This document shows positions 1 to 5,980 of a stretch of 5,980 nt of DNA, piece by piece (within the stretch, counting starts at the first letter, position 1; each line of letters opens with the position of its first letter). The notes beneath the pieces are model-generated. The model did no database searches and was not told the DNA's origin. It saw only the letters and a program-made list of their open reading frames with translations. Source of the stretch: Eudoraea sp. (lineage in GTDB: Bacteria; Bacteroidota; Bacteroidia; Flavobacteriales; Flavobacteriaceae). A program made the translations under genes and the position numbers. The stretch covers positions 1-5,980 of the forward strand of contig JABDRK010000169.1 of assembly GCA_013041785.1 (NCBI GenBank). Reading direction: 5' to 3'.

Positions 1-125
1 GAGCTGAAGCCAAAAGGCAAGATGAAAAGGAGGATTCTTCGACAAAAGAAGACACGGAATCAGATAAATTTTTAAGCCATTTTATAGCGCTTTCACACAA
101 AATCCTGGAGAAGATTTATGGATAG
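1..125 (+). CDS. C-terminal tail of an unidentified upstream protein (partial)
   Basis: The gene is cut by the left window edge, and 40 residues remain in the frame that begins at base 3, ending at a TAG at 123-125. The tail is strongly charged (Asp/Glu/Lys/Ser-rich, including DEKEDSSTKEDTESDK) and then turns more hydrophobic (FLSHFIALSHKILEKIYG). I cannot identify the family from this. The frame was preferred over the frame at base 1, which also stays open to a stop at 73-75, because its composition looks like a normal acidic linker plus helix. It also overlaps the start of the next gene by 8 bases, which matches the tight packing of the rest of the operon. The protein is probably the first or an earlier component of the same polysaccharide operon; that is inference. 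Confidence 0.5.
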   Translation, partial: AEAKRQDEKEDSSTKEDTESDKFLSHFIALSHKILEKIYG

Positions 126-1545
126 TGGAATTTTCCATATGATCCTGGACTATATCAATATAGTCTTCCTGATATTCAGTATTTTCCTGGTATTGCTGTT
201 TACTGGCATGGCATACCTGGCTACCCTGAATTCCATTCATTATCGCAATAAAAACAGTTTTGTAGATCTTTCCAAAGTAATGGCATCGCCTATTGCCCCG
301 GGCATCACAATTATAGCCCCGGCATTTAATGAAGGGTTGACCATAGTTGAAAATATCAGATCCCTGCTTTCCCTGCAATATGTAAACTACGAAGTAATGG
401 TAGTGAATGATGGGAGTAAGGATGATACCCTAAAGCAGATGATTGAAGCCTATGATCTGGAGAAAATTGATCGGGAAATAGACCCCAACTGGCCCTGTAA
501 GCCGATTAAAGCGGTTTACAAATCCCGTCAAAGGTCGTTTTCAAGGCTTACGGTGATCGATAAGGTGAATGGGGGAAAGTCTGATGCACTCAATACCGGG
601 ATTCGTTTGTCAGGAAACAAATACGTGGGCTGTATTGATGTGGACTGCCTGCTTGTACCCGAGGCATTGCTCCATGTGGTTAAAGCTTTCTATCAGCGAT
701 CAGAGAAACGGGTTATCGCTGTTGGCGGGGTAATCCGAATTGCCAATTCCTGCAAGATATCCGGGGGTCAGTTGGAGGAGATCCGCTTGCCTAAGAACTG
801 GTTGGCGAAATTCCAGCTACTCGAGTATACACGATCCTTTTTGTTGGGGCGTATGGCCTGGGGAAGGATAGATAGCCTGCTGATAATCTCAGGGGCTTTT
901 GGTTTTTTTGATCGGGAAATAGCCCTCGAGGTAGGGGGTTACAATACCGAAACTGTGGGAGAGGACATGGAAATTGTGTTTCGTATGAGACGCTACATGC
1001 ACGACCAGAAATTACCCTATACGGTTGAATATATACCCGACCCACTTTGCTGGACCGAAGTTCCGGAAAGTACTAAAACCCTGATTAATCAGCGCGACCG
1101 ATGGGCGCGTGGTAATTTGGAAACCCTGTACACCCACAGGGATATGTTCTTTAATCCCAAGTTTGGAAAATTGGGCATGCTTAGCTACCCATACTGGTTT
1201 TTTTACGAATGGCTGGCCCCCATACTGGAGTTTTTTGGATTTATATCCATTCTCATGTTCTATTACCTGGGGATTTTGAACCTTGAATTCTTTATAGCCA
1301 TAACCCTTACGATCTACACCTTCTCGGTAATGTTTTCCCTCTATGCCATTTTATGGGAGGTATTCACCTACAATCAGTATACACGCATTAAAGATCTGTG
1401 TACCCTGGTGCTTTGCGCCCTGCTGGAACCTTTTGTTTTCCATCCTGTAGTGGTTTGGTCTGCCATACGTGGCAATTACAAGAAACTGTTTAAGATTAAT
1501 TCGGGCTGGGGTTCTCAGGTTCGAAAAGGATTTGCGAAAAGTTAA
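118..1545 (+). CDS. Membrane-bound family 2 glycosyltransferase (PgaC/IcaA-like polysaccharide synthase)
   Basis: This 475-residue protein is predicted to polymerise a sugar from a nucleotide-sugar donor at the inner membrane and pass the chain outward. One N-terminal membrane helix (about residues 10-36) is followed by a cytosolic GT-A domain and about three C-terminal helices (about 356-382, 387-411, 426-449). The visible motifs are those of processive GT2 enzymes: IAPAFNEG (66-73), VVNDGSKDDT (95-104), GGKSDALN (152-159), the metal-binding DVD (174-176), GED (281-283, likely catalytic base D283) and QRDRW (325-329, the QxxRW product-binding motif). The ATG at 118 has GGAGAAG at 107-113, and it lies inside the end of the upstream ORF, which suggests translational coupling. 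All the catalytic motifs are intact, so it should be active. The polymer cannot be deduced: PgaC/IcaA make poly-N-acetylglucosamine, but no deacetylase of the PgaB type is present in the window. Confidence 0.9.
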   Translation: MDSGIFHMILDYINIVFLIFSIFLVLLFTGMAYLATLNSIHYRNKNSFVDLSKVMASPIAPGITIIAPAFNEGLTIVENIRSLLSLQYVNYEVMVVNDGSKDDTLKQMIEAYDLEKIDREIDPNWPCKPIKAVYKSRQRSFSRLTVIDKVNGGKSDALNTGIRLSGNKYVGCIDVDCLLVPEALLHVVKAFYQRSEKRVIAVGGVIRIANSCKISGGQLEEIRLPKNWLAKFQLLEYTRSFLLGRMAWGRIDSLLIISGAFGFFDREIALEVGGYNTETVGEDMEIVFRMRRYMHDQKLPYTVEYIPDPLCWTEVPESTKTLINQRDRWARGNLETLYTHRDMFFNPKFGKLGMLSYPYWFFYEWLAPILEFFGFISILMFYYLGILNLEFFIAITLTIYTFSVMFSLYAILWEVFTYNQYTRIKDLCTLVLCALLEPFVFHPVVVWSAIRGNYKKLFKINSGWGSQVRKGFAKS

Positions 1546-1548
1546 CGT

Positions 1549-3939
1549 ATGGAAGTTCTGGGTCAAATATCGCAAAAGGCAAAGAGGCATACCCTGAAGG
1601 AGTATATCCGCCTCGCTATTTCCTTCTTCCTTACCCTGGCGCTGTTGTCATTGTATCAATATATCAGGCTTTATGCCGAGGGTGTACTGGATGCCGTGTT
1701 CAGCAGGAGCCTTTTATTGTCATTTTTACATCATGCCGGATATGCTTCGCTCGTGGCCCTGTTGCTGGCGTTCGTCTTCAACTATCTGGAAAACCGAAGT
1801 ATGGGTCGGGGTCTTAGGGTCGTCCGCTTCATTTTCTGGCTGCTCCTGGTAATGGAAGGCATCCTCATGGAATATTATTTACAGTATTATGAGATTTTGG
1901 GAACCGGATTCTGGAATCGTTATTTTGCACTGACTACCTTTGGAAGGTTTATTTTGCTTTTTGTAGGCTATGCCATTGCCTGCGCCATATGGCTCCATGT
2001 TTTTTACAGGCTTACCTCCTCCGTATATCGGATGATAAGCAGAATGTATCCCTTTACCTTGATTCTGCTAAGCCTTTTTCTCGCTACCCTGACAACCAAC
2101 AAGAAACCAGTAAATGAAAATAAAACCCAGCATTTGGTGCTCGCTGCAGCTGACGAAGTATTTACTTTCAACACCTATGAGGGAAATGTAGAATTCCCAT
2201 TGATGCGGCCCTTTAGCTCGAATGATCAATTGGGCGGTTATTTAAATTTAGAAGATCAGAAACCCAATTTAGTGTTTATCGTCGTGGATGGGCTGGGTTC
2301 TGAATTTGTAGGGGATGATGGCATGTATCAGGATTTTACTCCATTTCTGAACTCCCTGGCACATAGTTCGCTCTACTGGCCAAATAATTTGAGCAACACA
2401 GGGGAAAATTATGCTGCTTTACCCACCATACTGGGATCCCTGCCTTTTGGTGAATACGGATTTACCAACCTGGAAGCACCGATTAACCGACAGACCCTTT
2501 TTGGTATACTGAAGAAAAATGGTTATCAAACCGCGTTCTACTATGGTGGAAACAGCGCTTTAAATCAACTGGATCGTTTTCTTTTTGAAGAACGCGTTGA
2601 TCTGGTAGTGGATCAAAAAAGTTTTGGGGATGATTACAAAAGACAGAAAAAGGACCGTGCCGGGATCTCTTTAGGGTATCCAGATAAGGAACTATACCGT
2701 AATTGGGCTTCTGGAAATATACCAACGGCACAACCAAAACTAGAAGTATTTCTAACCTTGAGTTCACAGAGTCCTTTTCTTATTCCGGATGCTCAGGTGT
2801 ATAAAGCGAAGGTTGATGGTATCCTGAAAAAAAGTACGCTACCGTCCCATATCAGGAAACGGATTAAGCGCAACAAAGAGTTGTTCGCCAGTATTCTCTA
2901 TAGCGATGATGCCTTAAAATCGCTTATTAGGAAGTATAGTACCCTTCCGGAATACCAGAATACCCTATTTGTGATTACTGGTAGTCACAGTGCAACAGAA
3001 TTACCAGGGGCTGATCCGCTGGAGCGCTATGAGGTCCCCCTGTTTATCTACAGTCCGATGGTTAAGAAACCCCTAAGAATAAAGAAACTGGTTTCGCATG
3101 CAGATATTACGCCATCACTGGTCCAGTTATTATACGAAAACTACAACATCCAGATTCCGGAAAGGGTTGCTTGGATGGGCGACGATCTTGTTGGTAAGCG
3201 TGTATTTGATCCTGACAAGCGCATCCCGTTATATCGATATGGAAAAGGTATTAAAGATTACATTTCCGGAAGGCATTTTATTTCAGACAATAAGCTGTTC
3301 AAATTAGAAGCAGGCCTTGCTGCAGTGGAACTTCGCAATGCCTCCTTAAAGGACTCTATAAAAGTGAAATTAAATGAATTTAGGGCTATAAACCAATATG
3401 TGACTACTAAGGATAAGCTCCTTCCTGAGCGCTACAGCCTCTTTACCAACGTCCTTAAAGCGCCAACTAAAGAGGAACAGGTGTGGATTAACAGCGTGTT
3501 TAATGGCCCGGATTATGACGATGCCTATGATACTGCACGAAGGCTGGCACTAGACGGTGATAAGGAAAGGGCATTACTGCTTTGCAGGTTTATTCTGAAC
3601 AAGGTTCCCGGACATGTAGATACGGAAATACTCATGGGCAGGATATACGGCTGGGAAGGCAAGTATGAAATGGCTTCTGAACTCTTGGAAAGGACGGTTC
3701 AAAAGTATCCTATTTATGTCGATGCTTATTTGGCGTTACTAGATATTTATCACTGGTCTGGACAGAATAATAAAGTTCTGTTACTGGAACGGAAACTGAA
3801 ATTTCATGGAATAAATTCCAATGAGGTTAAAGTTAAACTGAAAAGAGCGAAGGACCTGCTGAAACAGGATGAGGATAAAGCCAGTTTGGCCCAGGAAACC
3901 AAGGAGTCAGCTCCGGTTATGATTGGTAAAGGAATATGA
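1549..3939 (+). CDS. LtaS/sulfatase-like inner-membrane protein with degenerate active site and C-terminal TPR region
   Basis: This 796-residue protein has five predicted membrane helices (about 20-40, 56-80, 91-112, 130-153, 165-182), then an extracytoplasmic alkaline-phosphatase/sulfatase-fold domain (about 238-590), and a C-terminal TPR region (about 655-770). Five helices plus this domain is the architecture of lipoteichoic acid synthase and related phosphoglycerol or phosphoethanolamine transferases. Fold landmarks are present: NLVFIVVDGLG (240-250) with metal-ligand D247, YSDDAL (451-456), VITGSH (475-480) and VSHADITPSLVQLL (515-528). Compared with my recollection of the family motifs, the nucleophile Thr/Ser position is occupied by N287, the His of the usual H-x-PF motif is Q407 (SQSPF), and the Asp of GDH is S479 (GSHS). 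It may therefore be non-catalytic. The TPR resembles that of YaiO proteins. The gene starts 3 bases after the glycosyltransferase stop without a clear Shine-Dalgarno; the first ATG is required to keep helix 1. It may modify, or bind and guide, the glycan made by its neighbour. Confidence 0.85.
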   Translation: MEVLGQISQKAKRHTLKEYIRLAISFFLTLALLSLYQYIRLYAEGVLDAVFSRSLLLSFLHHAGYASLVALLLAFVFNYLENRSMGRGLRVVRFIFWLLLVMEGILMEYYLQYYEILGTGFWNRYFALTTFGRFILLFVGYAIACAIWLHVFYRLTSSVYRMISRMYPFTLILLSLFLATLTTNKKPVNENKTQHLVLAAADEVFTFNTYEGNVEFPLMRPFSSNDQLGGYLNLEDQKPNLVFIVVDGLGSEFVGDDGMYQDFTPFLNSLAHSSLYWPNNLSNTGENYAALPTILGSLPFGEYGFTNLEAPINRQTLFGILKKNGYQTAFYYGGNSALNQLDRFLFEERVDLVVDQKSFGDDYKRQKKDRAGISLGYPDKELYRNWASGNIPTAQPKLEVFLTLSSQSPFLIPDAQVYKAKVDGILKKSTLPSHIRKRIKRNKELFASILYSDDALKSLIRKYSTLPEYQNTLFVITGSHSATELPGADPLERYEVPLFIYSPMVKKPLRIKKLVSHADITPSLVQLLYENYNIQIPERVAWMGDDLVGKRVFDPDKRIPLYRYGKGIKDYISGRHFISDNKLFKLEAGLAAVELRNASLKDSIKVKLNEFRAINQYVTTKDKLLPERYSLFTNVLKAPTKEEQVWINSVFNGPDYDDAYDTARRLALDGDKERALLLCRFILNKVPGHVDTEILMGRIYGWEGKYEMASELLERTVQKYPIYVDAYLALLDIYHWSGQNNKVLLLERKLKFHGINSNEVKVKLKRAKDLLKQDEDKASLAQETKESAPVMIGKGI

Positions 3940-5162
3940 ATACAAAAGGATTAATTGTAGCAATCAGCTTTGTACTGGGGGTCTTTTCGGCTTTGGGCCA
4001 GAAAACAACCTATGAAGGTGATCCGGATATTTCATTTTCCGTAGCGAGATCCATGGCCTTTGCAGGGGATTATCACGGCGCCCGTGACACCTTAAACCGC
4101 ATGTTATCCAGGTATCCTGAATATTCAGAAGCAAGGGGATTTTTAGCCCGGACCTACAGTTGGGATGGGATGTATGCGGAAGCCCGTAAACAATTTAACC
4201 GCATTACCTCCAGGGAAAAGCGCAATAAGGAAGTTTGGGTAGCTGCCATAAAGAATGAAATCTATGCAGAAAACGAGGGTATTGCATTGGGATTGGCGAA
4301 TAAGGCCCTCATTTATATCCCCGAAGATTCAGAAATATTGAGTCTCAGGGAGGATATACTTTACCGTATTGCGCAAAATCAGGCTAAATCAAACAGTGAA
4401 ACCACGGAGAATAAGGAAAAAGAACAGCGAAAGTCAAAGAATCGCCTGTCTATAGGTAATGCAGTTGATGTTTTCGATGTGGGATACGATCCGATGATCT
4501 ATGCTACTGTTGAATATACCCGGGAAACTTCCCTGGGTAAGATCATCCCCAGGCTTAACTACAGCAACCGTTTCAATCAGAATGGTTGGCAGTATGAAGT
4601 GGATCTTTATCCCAAAATATCCAAAAAGCTTTATGCCTACTTGAATTATGGATATTCTCAGGATGCAATCTATCCCCGGCATAGGGGAGGGGCAGAACTT
4701 TACTGGAATCTGCCCAATGCCATGGAAGTATCCGCAGGTATGCGCTATCTGGCTTTTGCGTCCAGTGAAACCACCATTCTTACCGGTTCTGTAGGTTGGT
4801 ATAAGGGAAATTATTACCTGGCTTTAAGGCCGTATATTACACCAACGGGGGAATCCACTGGGTTTTCGGGCAATATTTTGGGAAGGCGCTATTTCAAGCA
4901 CAAGGAACATTTTCTGGGGATTAACATGGGAATGGGGTATGCCCCGGAACTTCGGCAATTGAGCGCCAACAATGCGCTACTGGCTGAGACCTTGTTCTTC
5001 GTTGAATCCCAGCAAATCAGGCTTGAATATCAGTTTACAAACCGTGATCAGGACAATCTTTACCGAACCCATCTGGGGATTACCCGACAGGAATTTGTGA
5101 CGGCACCCAATTCCTTTTTCTGGGCGCTAACAGCCGGGATGCAATATCAAATCCGCTTTTAA
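3936..5162 (+). CDS. YaiO-family outer-membrane protein (TPR plus beta-barrel)
   Basis: This 408-residue protein is predicted to sit in the outer membrane. Residues 1-21 form a signal peptide (MNTK, a hydrophobic stretch, then SALG before Q22, a signal peptidase I type site). Residues about 29-145 are TPR-like helices (SVARSMAFAGDYHGAR, YPEYSEARGFLARTYSWDG). Residues about 148-169 are a charged linker. Residues about 170-408 are alternating beta strands ending in QYQIRF, whose terminal Phe is the usual signal for barrel insertion by the Bam machinery. The segment GWQYEVDLYPKISKKLYAY and the following GYSQDAIYPRHRGGAELY match my memory of the YaiO outer-membrane domain. The ATG overlaps the previous stop in an ATGA (3936-3939), with AAAGGA at 3928-3933. 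A TPR joined to a barrel is also the plan of PgaA, the poly-GlcNAc exporter, so an export-pore role is likely but inferred; E. coli YaiO itself has no settled function. Confidence 0.85.
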   Translation: MNTKGLIVAISFVLGVFSALGQKTTYEGDPDISFSVARSMAFAGDYHGARDTLNRMLSRYPEYSEARGFLARTYSWDGMYAEARKQFNRITSREKRNKEVWVAAIKNEIYAENEGIALGLANKALIYIPEDSEILSLREDILYRIAQNQAKSNSETTENKEKEQRKSKNRLSIGNAVDVFDVGYDPMIYATVEYTRETSLGKIIPRLNYSNRFNQNGWQYEVDLYPKISKKLYAYLNYGYSQDAIYPRHRGGAELYWNLPNAMEVSAGMRYLAFASSETTILTGSVGWYKGNYYLALRPYITPTGESTGFSGNILGRRYFKHKEHFLGINMGMGYAPELRQLSANNALLAETLFFVESQQIRLEYQFTNRDQDNLYRTHLGITRQEFVTAPNSFFWALTAGMQYQIRF

Positions 5163-5306
5163 ATCGATGAACTGCAAGGCCCTTAAAAACTTACCACAAA
5201 AAAGCCAAATTACACCACAAAATATTGTCGCTACATACTAAGTTGGCTAAGTTTAAGTTATGTAATAGGAGAAATATCCAAAGCATACCAAAAACCCAGA
5301 CTTATC
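5163..5306. other. AT-rich spacer between the polysaccharide operon and the small-ORF module
   Basis: No convincing gene or strong intrinsic terminator is visible directly after the YaiO-family stop. The spacer contains three TAAGTT hexamers (5239, 5248, 5254), one of which forms part of the candidate promoter, and an AGGAG at 5267-5271 with no start codon at a useful distance. Because no terminator is seen before 5384, transcripts of the operon could run on into the small-ORF region. Confidence 0.5.
5225..5255 (+). promoter_or_regulatory. Candidate Bacteroidota-type promoter for the small-ORF transcript
   Basis: TTG at 5225-5227 and TAAGTTTA at 5248-5255 are separated by 20 bases. The known Bacteroidota vegetative consensus is TTTG or TTG, about 19-21 bases, then TAnnTTTG; only the final G is missing here. 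It would start a transcript near 5262, giving a leader of about 45 bases before the first small ORF. The region is AT-rich, so a chance match is possible. Confidence 0.4.
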
Positions 5307-5405
5307 ATGTTATACGATACCTACGGGGAGGAGTATTTGAACTTCCTCCGCGAATTGAACGAAATTTTAAGTTTAAATGAACTAGCTGAGTTGGACTACC
5401 TCTAG
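5307..5405 (+). CDS. Small ORF A: 32-residue acidic peptide, paralogue of small ORF B
   Basis: This ATG-to-TAG ORF encodes a 32-residue acidic peptide beginning MLYDTYGEEYLNFL. It has no recognised family. The reason for calling it is its similarity to the next small ORF: residues 9-32 align without gaps to residues 10-33 of ORF B, with 10 identities in 24, including Y-x-N-F and LNEIL, and with conservative changes (L/V, L/I, E/D). At several conserved residues the codons differ synonymously (AAC/AAT for Asn), as expected for selection on protein. The spacing of Leu, Ile, Tyr and Phe suggests an amphipathic helix with an acidic face. There is no signal peptide and no Shine-Dalgarno; A at -3 fits Bacteroidota starts. 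The last codons and the stop lie inside a terminator hairpin. It could be a functional microprotein, a leader peptide or part of a toxin-antitoxin-like or regulatory unit; the sequence does not decide. Confidence 0.5.
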   Translation: MLYDTYGEEYLNFLRELNEILSLNELAELDYL

Positions 5406-5421
5406 TCCAACCAGCTTTTTT
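5384..5421 (+). terminator. Rho-independent terminator overlapping the end of small ORF A
   Basis: AGCTG (5384-5388), one bulged A (5389) and GTTGGACTA (5390-5398) pair with TAGTCCAAC (5403-5411) and CAGCT (5412-5416). The loop is CCTC and the T run is 5416-5421. This is a 14-pair stem, so termination on the + strand should be efficient; no T run exists on the other side, so it works in one direction. The 5' arm encodes the last residues of small ORF A, and its TAG stop is the first three bases of the 3' arm. Confidence 0.88.
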
Positions 5422-5434
5422 AATTATCGCAACT

Positions 5435-5536
5435 ATGGCTAAACATAACCACGACAATACCGATTATGTAAATTTCATTGAGAGTTTGAATGAAATTTTA
5501 ATGGATTACGACATCAATAGACTAAGTTATTCTTAG
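5435..5536 (+). CDS. Small ORF B: 33-residue peptide, paralogue of small ORF A
   Basis: This ATG-to-TAG ORF encodes 33 residues beginning MAKHNHDNTDYVNFIE. It shares the Y-x-N-F-x3-LNEIL core and the spacing to a late L-x-Y with small ORF A, while its first nine residues differ (Lys/His/Asn-rich). The ATG is only 13 bases after the T run of the preceding terminator, with no Shine-Dalgarno but with A at -3. No separate promoter is obvious, since the space before it is the terminator hairpin. Its expression may therefore depend on read-through of that terminator or on a promoter inside small ORF A. A second terminator follows 26 bases after its stop. The function is unknown, and I do not recognise a described family. 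Confidence 0.5.
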   Translation: MAKHNHDNTDYVNFIESLNEILMDYDINRLSYS

Positions 5537-5562
5537 GTGTTTATTTAGTGTATAAGTGCAAT

Positions 5563-5592
5563 AAAAAAGCCCTGTTAGTTCAGGGCTTTTTT
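5563..5592. terminator. Bidirectional intrinsic terminator between the small ORFs and rpoD
   Basis: GCCCTG (5569-5574) pairs with CAGGGC (5581-5586) around a TTAGTT loop. The stem is flanked by six A on the left (5563-5568) and six T on the right (5587-5592), so each strand shows a GC-rich hairpin followed by a T run. It can end the small-ORF transcript on the + strand and the rpoD transcript on the - strand, whose stop codon lies about 27 bases away. Confidence 0.9.
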
Positions 5593-5618
5593 GTTTTTTG
5601 AGGTTTAATGATTGGTAT

Positions 5619-5980
5619 CTATCCGAGATAACTCTTTAATAACTTGCTTCTGGAATTATGCCGTAGTTTACGGATAGCTTTTTCACGAATCTGCCGAACC
5701 CGTTCACGGGTAAGGTCAAACGTCTGACCAATTTCTGCAAGGGTCATAGACGGCTGGTCACCGATACCGTAATAAAGTTTAACCACATCAGCTTCCCTGG
5801 GTGACAGGGTTTCAAGTGCCCTGTTAATCTCCGTATTCAAAGATTGCTGCATAAGTCCGCGGTCGGGTTTGGGTGATTCCGAAGAATTCATGACGTCGTA
5901 CAGATTAACGTCTTCACCTTCCTTCAGTGGCGCATCCATGGAGATATGACGCCCTGCATTCTTTAGAGATTGTTTTACCT
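5619..5980 (-). CDS. rpoD: RNA polymerase primary sigma factor RpoD, C-terminal part (partial)
   Basis: The gene is cut by the right window edge: the frame stays open through base 5980, so the ATG at 5937-5939 is an internal methionine and not the start. About 120 residues remain, from VKQSLKNAGRHISMDAPL (end of region 3 and the linker) through all of region 4. ALETLSPREADVVKLYYGIG is region 4.1. MTLAEIGQTFDLTRERVRQI is the helix-turn-helix of region 4.2, which reads the upstream promoter element and contacts activators. The end is KLLKSYLG followed by TAG. This wording is characteristic of the primary sigma factor of Bacteroidota, which recognises TTTG/TAnnTTTG promoters rather than the E. 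coli consensus. The gene converges on the small-ORF module and shares a terminator with it. Identification is firm. Confidence 0.96.
   Translation of the reverse strand, partial: VKQSLKNAGRHISMDAPLKEGEDVNLYDVMNSSESPKPDRGLMQQSLNTEINRALETLSPREADVVKLYYGIGDQPSMTLAEIGQTFDLTRERVRQIREKAIRKLRHNSRSKLLKSYLG

Follow-up and report, generated by a model that had tools for sequence, protein, structure and literature searches.

A new microprotein family of the Flavobacteriaceae and its predicted LytTR and small-RNA regulon

Introduction

Several described systems come close to the one reported here. GacA of pseudomonads is a two-component regulator associated with RsmY and RsmZ, small RNAs that carry a repeated short motif, and Sda of Bacillus subtilis is a 46-residue helical hairpin inhibitor that binds KinA. 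Among LytTR regulators, AgrA has a consensus that differs from the ACMACA repeat of the element presented below. As far as the available part of the published description goes, sites of the LytTR family consist of direct repeats just upstream of the promoter, with a usual separation of 12 bp (PMC6193735). Within the Bacteroidota, the excerpted account of the FopS small RNAs and RbpB of Bacteroides describes multicopy RNAs with a shared 5' region, FopS being about 65-70 nt long and having canonical sigma-ABfr promoters (PMC11697453). The same excerpt states, for Bacteroides, that homologues of the classical RNA chaperones are lacking and that post-transcriptional circuits are hard to find (PMC11697453).

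The locus analyzed here lies in a stretch of 5,980 nt from Eudoraea sp. (hereafter the window) and combines two microprotein genes of a new family with an upstream element of predicted LytTR type (Table 1).

Results

The microprotein pair

ORF1 and ORF2 are read in different frames, each with an ATG and a stop codon, at the positions given by a first-pass annotation of the window. Their peptides, which that annotation had called related, share 10 identities in an ungapped alignment of 23 residues. The BLOSUM62 score of this core is 53, whereas the best of 5000 shuffled versions of ORF2 scored 46, and the face common to both peptides reads Y-x2-F-x3-LNEIL. Searches of Pfam and NCBIfam gave nothing for either microprotein at E <= 10, which bears out the earlier remark that no named family was known for the pair. 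The best PHROGs matches have E values of at least 0.035, and a PDB search made with the ORF1 profile only gave a best E of 0.78. Similarity to phage DNA was rejected: among the 20 matches listed of 207 records, the matches are short and cover 7-12% of the query. The literature searched, in which few subscription papers were covered, contained no recognised description of the microprotein pair.

Both frames are kept in relatives, and changes gather at the third codon position instead of being spread equally over all three. Substitutions per site at codon positions 1, 2 and 3 amount to 0.15, 0.05 and 0.46 in ORF1 (49 sequences) and to 0.25, 0.19 and 0.49 in ORF2 (44 sequences). Mean pS and pN are 0.848 and 0.082 for ORF1 (pN/pS 0.097, 49 sequences) and 0.804 and 0.208 for ORF2 (pN/pS 0.258, the 44 of 49 sequences that are 33 residues long), with pN/pS of at least 0.987 in the remaining two forward frames; the ratios are approximate because they are pairwise means across related genomes with pS near saturation. 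In ORF1, 20 of the 32 positions are invariant in all 49 copies, while their codons vary. Frame and length are conserved with a synonymous excess, as in a protein-coding microprotein family. Purifying selection, together with the occurrence of the pair in many genomes of the family (see below), supports the first-pass view that ORF1 and ORF2 are real, related genes under selection, their translation being predicted from these comparisons.

Structurally, AlphaFold2 models with moderate confidence a single helix over residues 2-31 of ORF1 (mean pLDDT 78.7, pTM 0.42) and helices over residues 3-24 and 27-30 of ORF2 (mean pLDDT 76.8, pTM 0.39). Net charge is -7 for ORF1 and -4 for ORF2, and no hydrophobic membrane stretch is present in either peptide sequence. 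The peptides are predicted to be soluble, acidic and mostly helical.

Table 1. Coordinates of observed and predicted features at the microprotein locus of the window
Feature	Position	Strand	Remarks
Predicted LytTR-type operator and -33 element	5193..5227	+	ACCACA 5193-5198, ACCACA 5214-5219, TTG 5225-5227
-7 box TAAGTTTA (TAnnTTTG type), 20 bp after TTG	5248..5255	+	Spacing conserved
Predicted mRNA leader	5260..5306	+	Start inferred from the position of the -7 box (-12 to -5)
ORF1	5307-5405	+	32-aa microprotein MLYDTYGEEYLNFLRELNEILSLNELAELDYL
Hairpin enclosing the ORF1 stop codon, then T6 in the window	5384..5416	+	Folding z -4.93
ORF2	5435-5536	+	33-aa microprotein MAKHNHDNTDYVNFIESLNEILMDYDINRLSYS
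Predicted intrinsic terminator of the operon, between operon and converging rpoD	5560..5595	+	Inverted repeat, T-run, folding z -5.5
rpoD 3' part (sigma-70 region 4), converging	5619..5939	-	Sigma70_r4, E 8.3e-18

Distribution and genomic neighborhood

Of 299 sampled genomes of the family, 51 have an ORF1 match at E < 1e-7, and weak relatives are present in G023 and G251. Fifty-three loci were fetched: those of 50 of the 51 strong genomes (the window's own being left out), those of G023 and G251, and that of G001, which came from a genus search outside the 299-genome sample. ORF1 is 32 residues long in all 53, and ORF2 follows it in 48 (G001 among them); with the window's own genome included, the adjacent pair is present in 48 of the 299 family genomes. 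The other five loci (L112-L116, from G059, G079, G289, G023 and G251) hold a lone ORF1-like gene in different surroundings, the relative of G023 and G251 being 41% identical. A profile search of the same 299 genomes returned the same 53 genomes at E < 1e-14 and, beyond these, only ORF2 copies and matches with E of at least 0.006. An ORF1 match in G032 (E 0.028) was rejected, there being no such small ORF at that place. Among 296 genomes of the phylum, a strong match occurs in five alone, all of them of the same family, the Flavobacteriaceae; the remaining genomes gave E values of at least 0.02, and two that were inspected showed no such small ORF.

Of 256 stretches in named genomes that match the pattern, 242 code for a relative. 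Judged by our own rule, ORF2 is present in 77 of the 80 named loci kept, is disrupted in two Eudoraea MAGs and is missed in one where the contig ends early. The two MAGs (L138 and L141, from 10001) keep ORF1 with an altered end and have lost the start of ORF2, through either natural deletions or assembly errors. Relatives are found in Robiginitalea, Lentiprolixibacter, Muriicola, Eudoraea and Flagellimonas, and further in Allomuricauda, Maribacter, Croceitalea and Zeaxanthinibacter.

The rpoD neighborhood pointed out in the first pass recurs, a converging RpoD match lying downstream in 45 of the 48 fetched pair loci; no rpoD match is present within 4 kb in the other three or in any of the five single-copy loci. 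Upstream, positions 118-5162 of the window hold an operon-like cluster encoding a family-2 glycosyltransferase, a sulfatase-domain protein and a YaiO-type outer-membrane barrel, and a YaiO match is found within 4 kb upstream in 43 of the 48 fetched pair loci.

ORF1 and ORF2 are predicted to form one operon with a short transcript of about 336 nt. Intrinsic terminators had previously been assigned to both ORFs. The one after ORF2 is good, and a simple rule, applied without a control, finds a terminator-like hairpin behind ORF2 in 46 of 49 copies. The one after ORF1 is weak: few relatives have a T-run after the hairpin, and at least six of its seven pairs are found in 10 of 49 genomes, which is within the range of the dealt control (mean 5, maximum 11). 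The inter-cistron hairpin was rejected as a conserved attenuator because its pairing does not exceed that control.

Promoter element and predicted regulator

The earlier description of the region holds for the ORFs themselves; the promoter, with its predicted link to small RNAs, was missing from it, and it put forward no function for the pair. Across 49 copies, the promoter consists of a near-ACMACA repeat, 15 bp, ACCACA, 5 bp, TTG, 20 bp and a TANNTTTA-like box. The repeats stand in an identical 21-bp register in 49/49 copies, every repeat base is kept in 44-49 of them and TTG in 46, and the spacing from TTG to the -7 box is 20 bp in 48 and 21 bp in one (G136). The window's repeats lie 21 bp apart, start to start, and its promoter matches the pattern with zero mismatches (G000:C184:5193-5253). 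With a slightly relaxed pattern, the promoter was recovered at one mismatch or fewer in 71 of the 79 named loci whose upstream sequence was long enough. The TAnnTTTG box is the -7 box of flavobacterial sigma-A, according to the available part of its description (PMC9723704). The usual 12-bp separation of LytTR sites, taken between 9-bp repeats, gives 21 bp and so matches the register of the pair. Paired direct repeats are thus present at the spacing expected of a LytTR regulon, just upstream of a promoter, and a LytTR protein is predicted to bind them.

A search for the element allowing one mismatch, in 42 genomes (40 of the 49 pair genomes, G079 and G023), gave 213 matches by our own sum, versus one match for the reversed pattern; the 213 include most of the microprotein promoters used to derive it. 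Beside several of the sites stands a response regulator gene, with Response_reg and LytTR domains in 4/4 cases scanned. Its orthologue (E <= 1e-60) was found in 41 of these 42 genomes; only G023 is without it, and no site occurs there. Because the pattern was derived from pair genomes, the informative test of the association between regulator and element lies outside them. In 45 genomes hand-picked among those without the pair, only G032, G059 and G289 have the orthologue (E < 1e-100); they carry 2, 3 and 11 sites, respectively, and no other genome of the 45 has two or more. The other 42 hold two sites in total (the reversed control found three), and two pair-less genomes with distant relatives of the regulator (38-40%) have no site. 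Another genome lacking the pair, G079, carries the orthologue together with six sites. Overall, among 87 genomes, sites occur in 44 of 44 with the orthologue and number two in total in the 43 without it, an association that is not circular because four of the 44 orthologue genomes are without the pair.

Of the 41 regulator loci, 30 were fetched; under a slightly relaxed pattern, 21 of these have a same-strand site roughly 60-620 nt downstream of the gene, against 0/30 for the reversed control, and the other nine have no site at one mismatch or fewer. At L267, the site comes 77 nt after the regulator gene. At several regulator loci the last downstream site stands before another gene, putatively that of the kinase; at L263, this gene has TPR repeats in its first 332 residues. 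The element thus co-occurs with, and adjoins, the gene of a LytTR response regulator, as in a LytTR regulon. This shared promoter element beside the regulator gene suggests that the regulator likely switches on the pair and the predicted small RNAs. The peptide can do without the regulator, since G023 and G251 have relatives without regulator or element; in G032 the regulator is present and no microprotein was detected. A search of the literature, again taking in few subscription papers, found no recognised link between LytTR regulators and small RNAs in flavobacteria.

Predicted small RNAs and the CCCAAAT motif

Twenty stretches around the element were read, picked among the matches listed, so that the proportions of site kinds are not estimates. 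Many sites stand before short intergenic units without long ORFs, which are candidate small-RNA genes with predicted transcription; those at L258, L262 and L265 look like chance matches. One kind of unit, here called class B, carries CATTTTCATATAGTGTTCTCGTAAAAG and a terminator-like hairpin and is a predicted small RNA, with examples at G000:C352:3571-3688 and C358:2586-2705 (L256, L257) and at many other loci, in one to five copies per genome. The three matches in G002, a genome that is 99% complete and belongs to the same genus as the window, are the microprotein promoter and two class B units. A search of the 299 family genomes with the 27-base class B core, allowing up to two mismatches, found it in 48, a set identical to that of the pair genomes; as these may form one clade, the co-occurrence may be due in part or wholly to common descent.

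By eye, the reverse complement of class B resembles an ATGAAAATGAAAAAA start region. Predicted pairing between class B and the microprotein mRNA is not above that of shuffles (mean z -0.27, 0/49 below -2), and a class B RNA targeting this mRNA was rejected, the pairing being at chance level.

A second kind of predicted small RNA combines CCCAAAT-type motifs with a hairpin and is found at L252 (1738-2453), L253 (1300-1685), L260, L261, L264 and L266. These loci carry CCCCAAAT and, in several, also ACCTACTT-type motifs, and in L252 and L253 the units form arrays 325-330 bp apart. Several of them stand near what, by eye, we take to be an HflX-like gene. Rfam gave no match at the gathering score in the window or in ten element loci. 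Rfp18 of F. psychrophilum was considered as a known equivalent by its description only, as given in the available part of the source (PMC9723704).

The same motif recurs in many of the microprotein mRNAs. CCAAAT is present in 36 of 49 ORF1 leaders and CCCAAAT in 28, whereas no 7-mer rose above 10 in any of 100 shuffles; CCAAAT is also present in 18 of 49 spacers before ORF2. In the window itself, leader and spacer both lack the exact CCAAAT, the leader reading AACCCAGACTTATC before the ATG. In the fetched loci, CCAAAT lies downstream of 21 of 33 distinct non-class-B sites, where 200 shuffles gave a mean of 2.1 and a maximum of 9, and downstream of 0/28 class B sites; a class B variant or two and some sites that probably arose by chance are counted among the 33. 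Three lone relatives (G059, G079 and G289) have CCCCAAAT just before the ATG and no such promoter element in the 230 nt before the gene, which suggests from sequence that the RNA motif predates the promoter element. Two other lone relatives (among L112-L116) have CCCCTAAA or CCCCTTAA near the start codon.

Discussion

We consider it on balance probable that the locus is a conserved, selected microprotein operon which the LytTR regulator would likely co-induce with the predicted small RNAs, the regulon link being one of co-occurrence and position. In its active state, the regulator would bind the two repeats 21 bp apart and activate transcription by sigma-A, starting near 5260. Translation may then be tuned by a factor that reads CCCAAAT-type sites, which occur in many microprotein leaders as well as in the second small-RNA class; the small RNAs would be competitors or co-targets for this factor. 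The peptides would be a matched pair of protein-binding regulators directed at one conserved cytoplasmic partner, which they probably share. The dense invariant residues of ORF1, 20 of its 32 positions in 49 copies, speak for a protein-binding role, and it is from these, the shared helix face and the predicted regulon that we infer a paired-regulator function.

The operon could instead yield mainly a regulatory RNA, with the peptides as a minor or secondary product of a dual-function small RNA. The promoter element common to predicted noncoding units, the CCCAAAT motif in many copies and the shortness of the predicted transcript would suit such an RNA; we nevertheless regard it as unlikely, given pN/pS values of 0.10 and 0.26 with their codon-position pattern, ORF1 residues that stay invariant though their codons vary, and lone relatives elsewhere that keep the protein. 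Feedback in the manner of Sda, in which the microproteins would bind this LytTR system's own histidine kinase or its regulator, is in our estimate no more and no less likely than that: the pair and the regulator locus fall in the same predicted regulon and the peptides are acidic and helical, yet the regulator orthologue is missing from G023 and G251, which do carry a relative, and G032 has the regulator with no microprotein detected.

The converging rpoD match in most pair loci might indicate that the pair acts on RNA polymerase or a sigma factor, hence its place beside rpoD. This appears improbable, since a convergent rpoD is not co-transcribed with the pair and since the three pair loci and five single loci without rpoD make the linkage non-essential. 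It is more improbable still that the products are leader or attenuation peptides or a type I toxin. The ORFs are short and a hairpin lies at the ORF1 stop, but in the window no gene in the same direction follows before the terminator and the converging rpoD, and the peptides are acidic and lack the hydrophobic membrane stretch that would mark such a toxin.

Taken as a conserved microprotein operon under likely LytTR control, the locus offers a 32-residue non-membrane protein with 20 invariant residues that lies outside every curated family model searched. Sequence ties one single-copy LytTR regulator to multicopy predicted small RNAs and to conserved proteins of 32-33 residues, which makes a defined, testable circuit in genera with cultured strains, such as Robiginitalea, Flagellimonas and Muriicola.

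Compared with known systems, the predicted small RNAs share with FopS that both are multicopy Bacteroidota small RNAs with a shared 5' region; unlike the situation here, FopS have canonical sigma-ABfr promoters, and no microprotein operon figures in the available part of the FopS account (PMC11697453). The microproteins resemble Sda in being very small and helical, and, if the analogy extends so far, in binding a regulatory protein, as predicted here. As in LytTR regulons of the AlgR/AgrA/LytR type, direct repeats lie two helical turns apart upstream of a promoter, and a regulator with Response_reg and LytTR domains has sites beside its own gene; unlike the usual case, the sites examined here stand mostly before predicted small RNAs and microproteins. 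The resemblance to GacA is that of a two-component regulator whose predicted outputs would be, among others, several small RNAs with a repeated short motif, although a LytTR regulator here takes the place of the LuxR-type one and a microprotein operon belongs to the predicted regulon. The system may, quite tentatively, be a Bacteroidota counterpart of Gac/Rsm, in which the LytTR output would be two multicopy small-RNA families and a microprotein operon, these RNAs and the microprotein mRNA would compete for one factor through CCCAAAT sites, and the two peptides, as its protein arm, would close the circuit.
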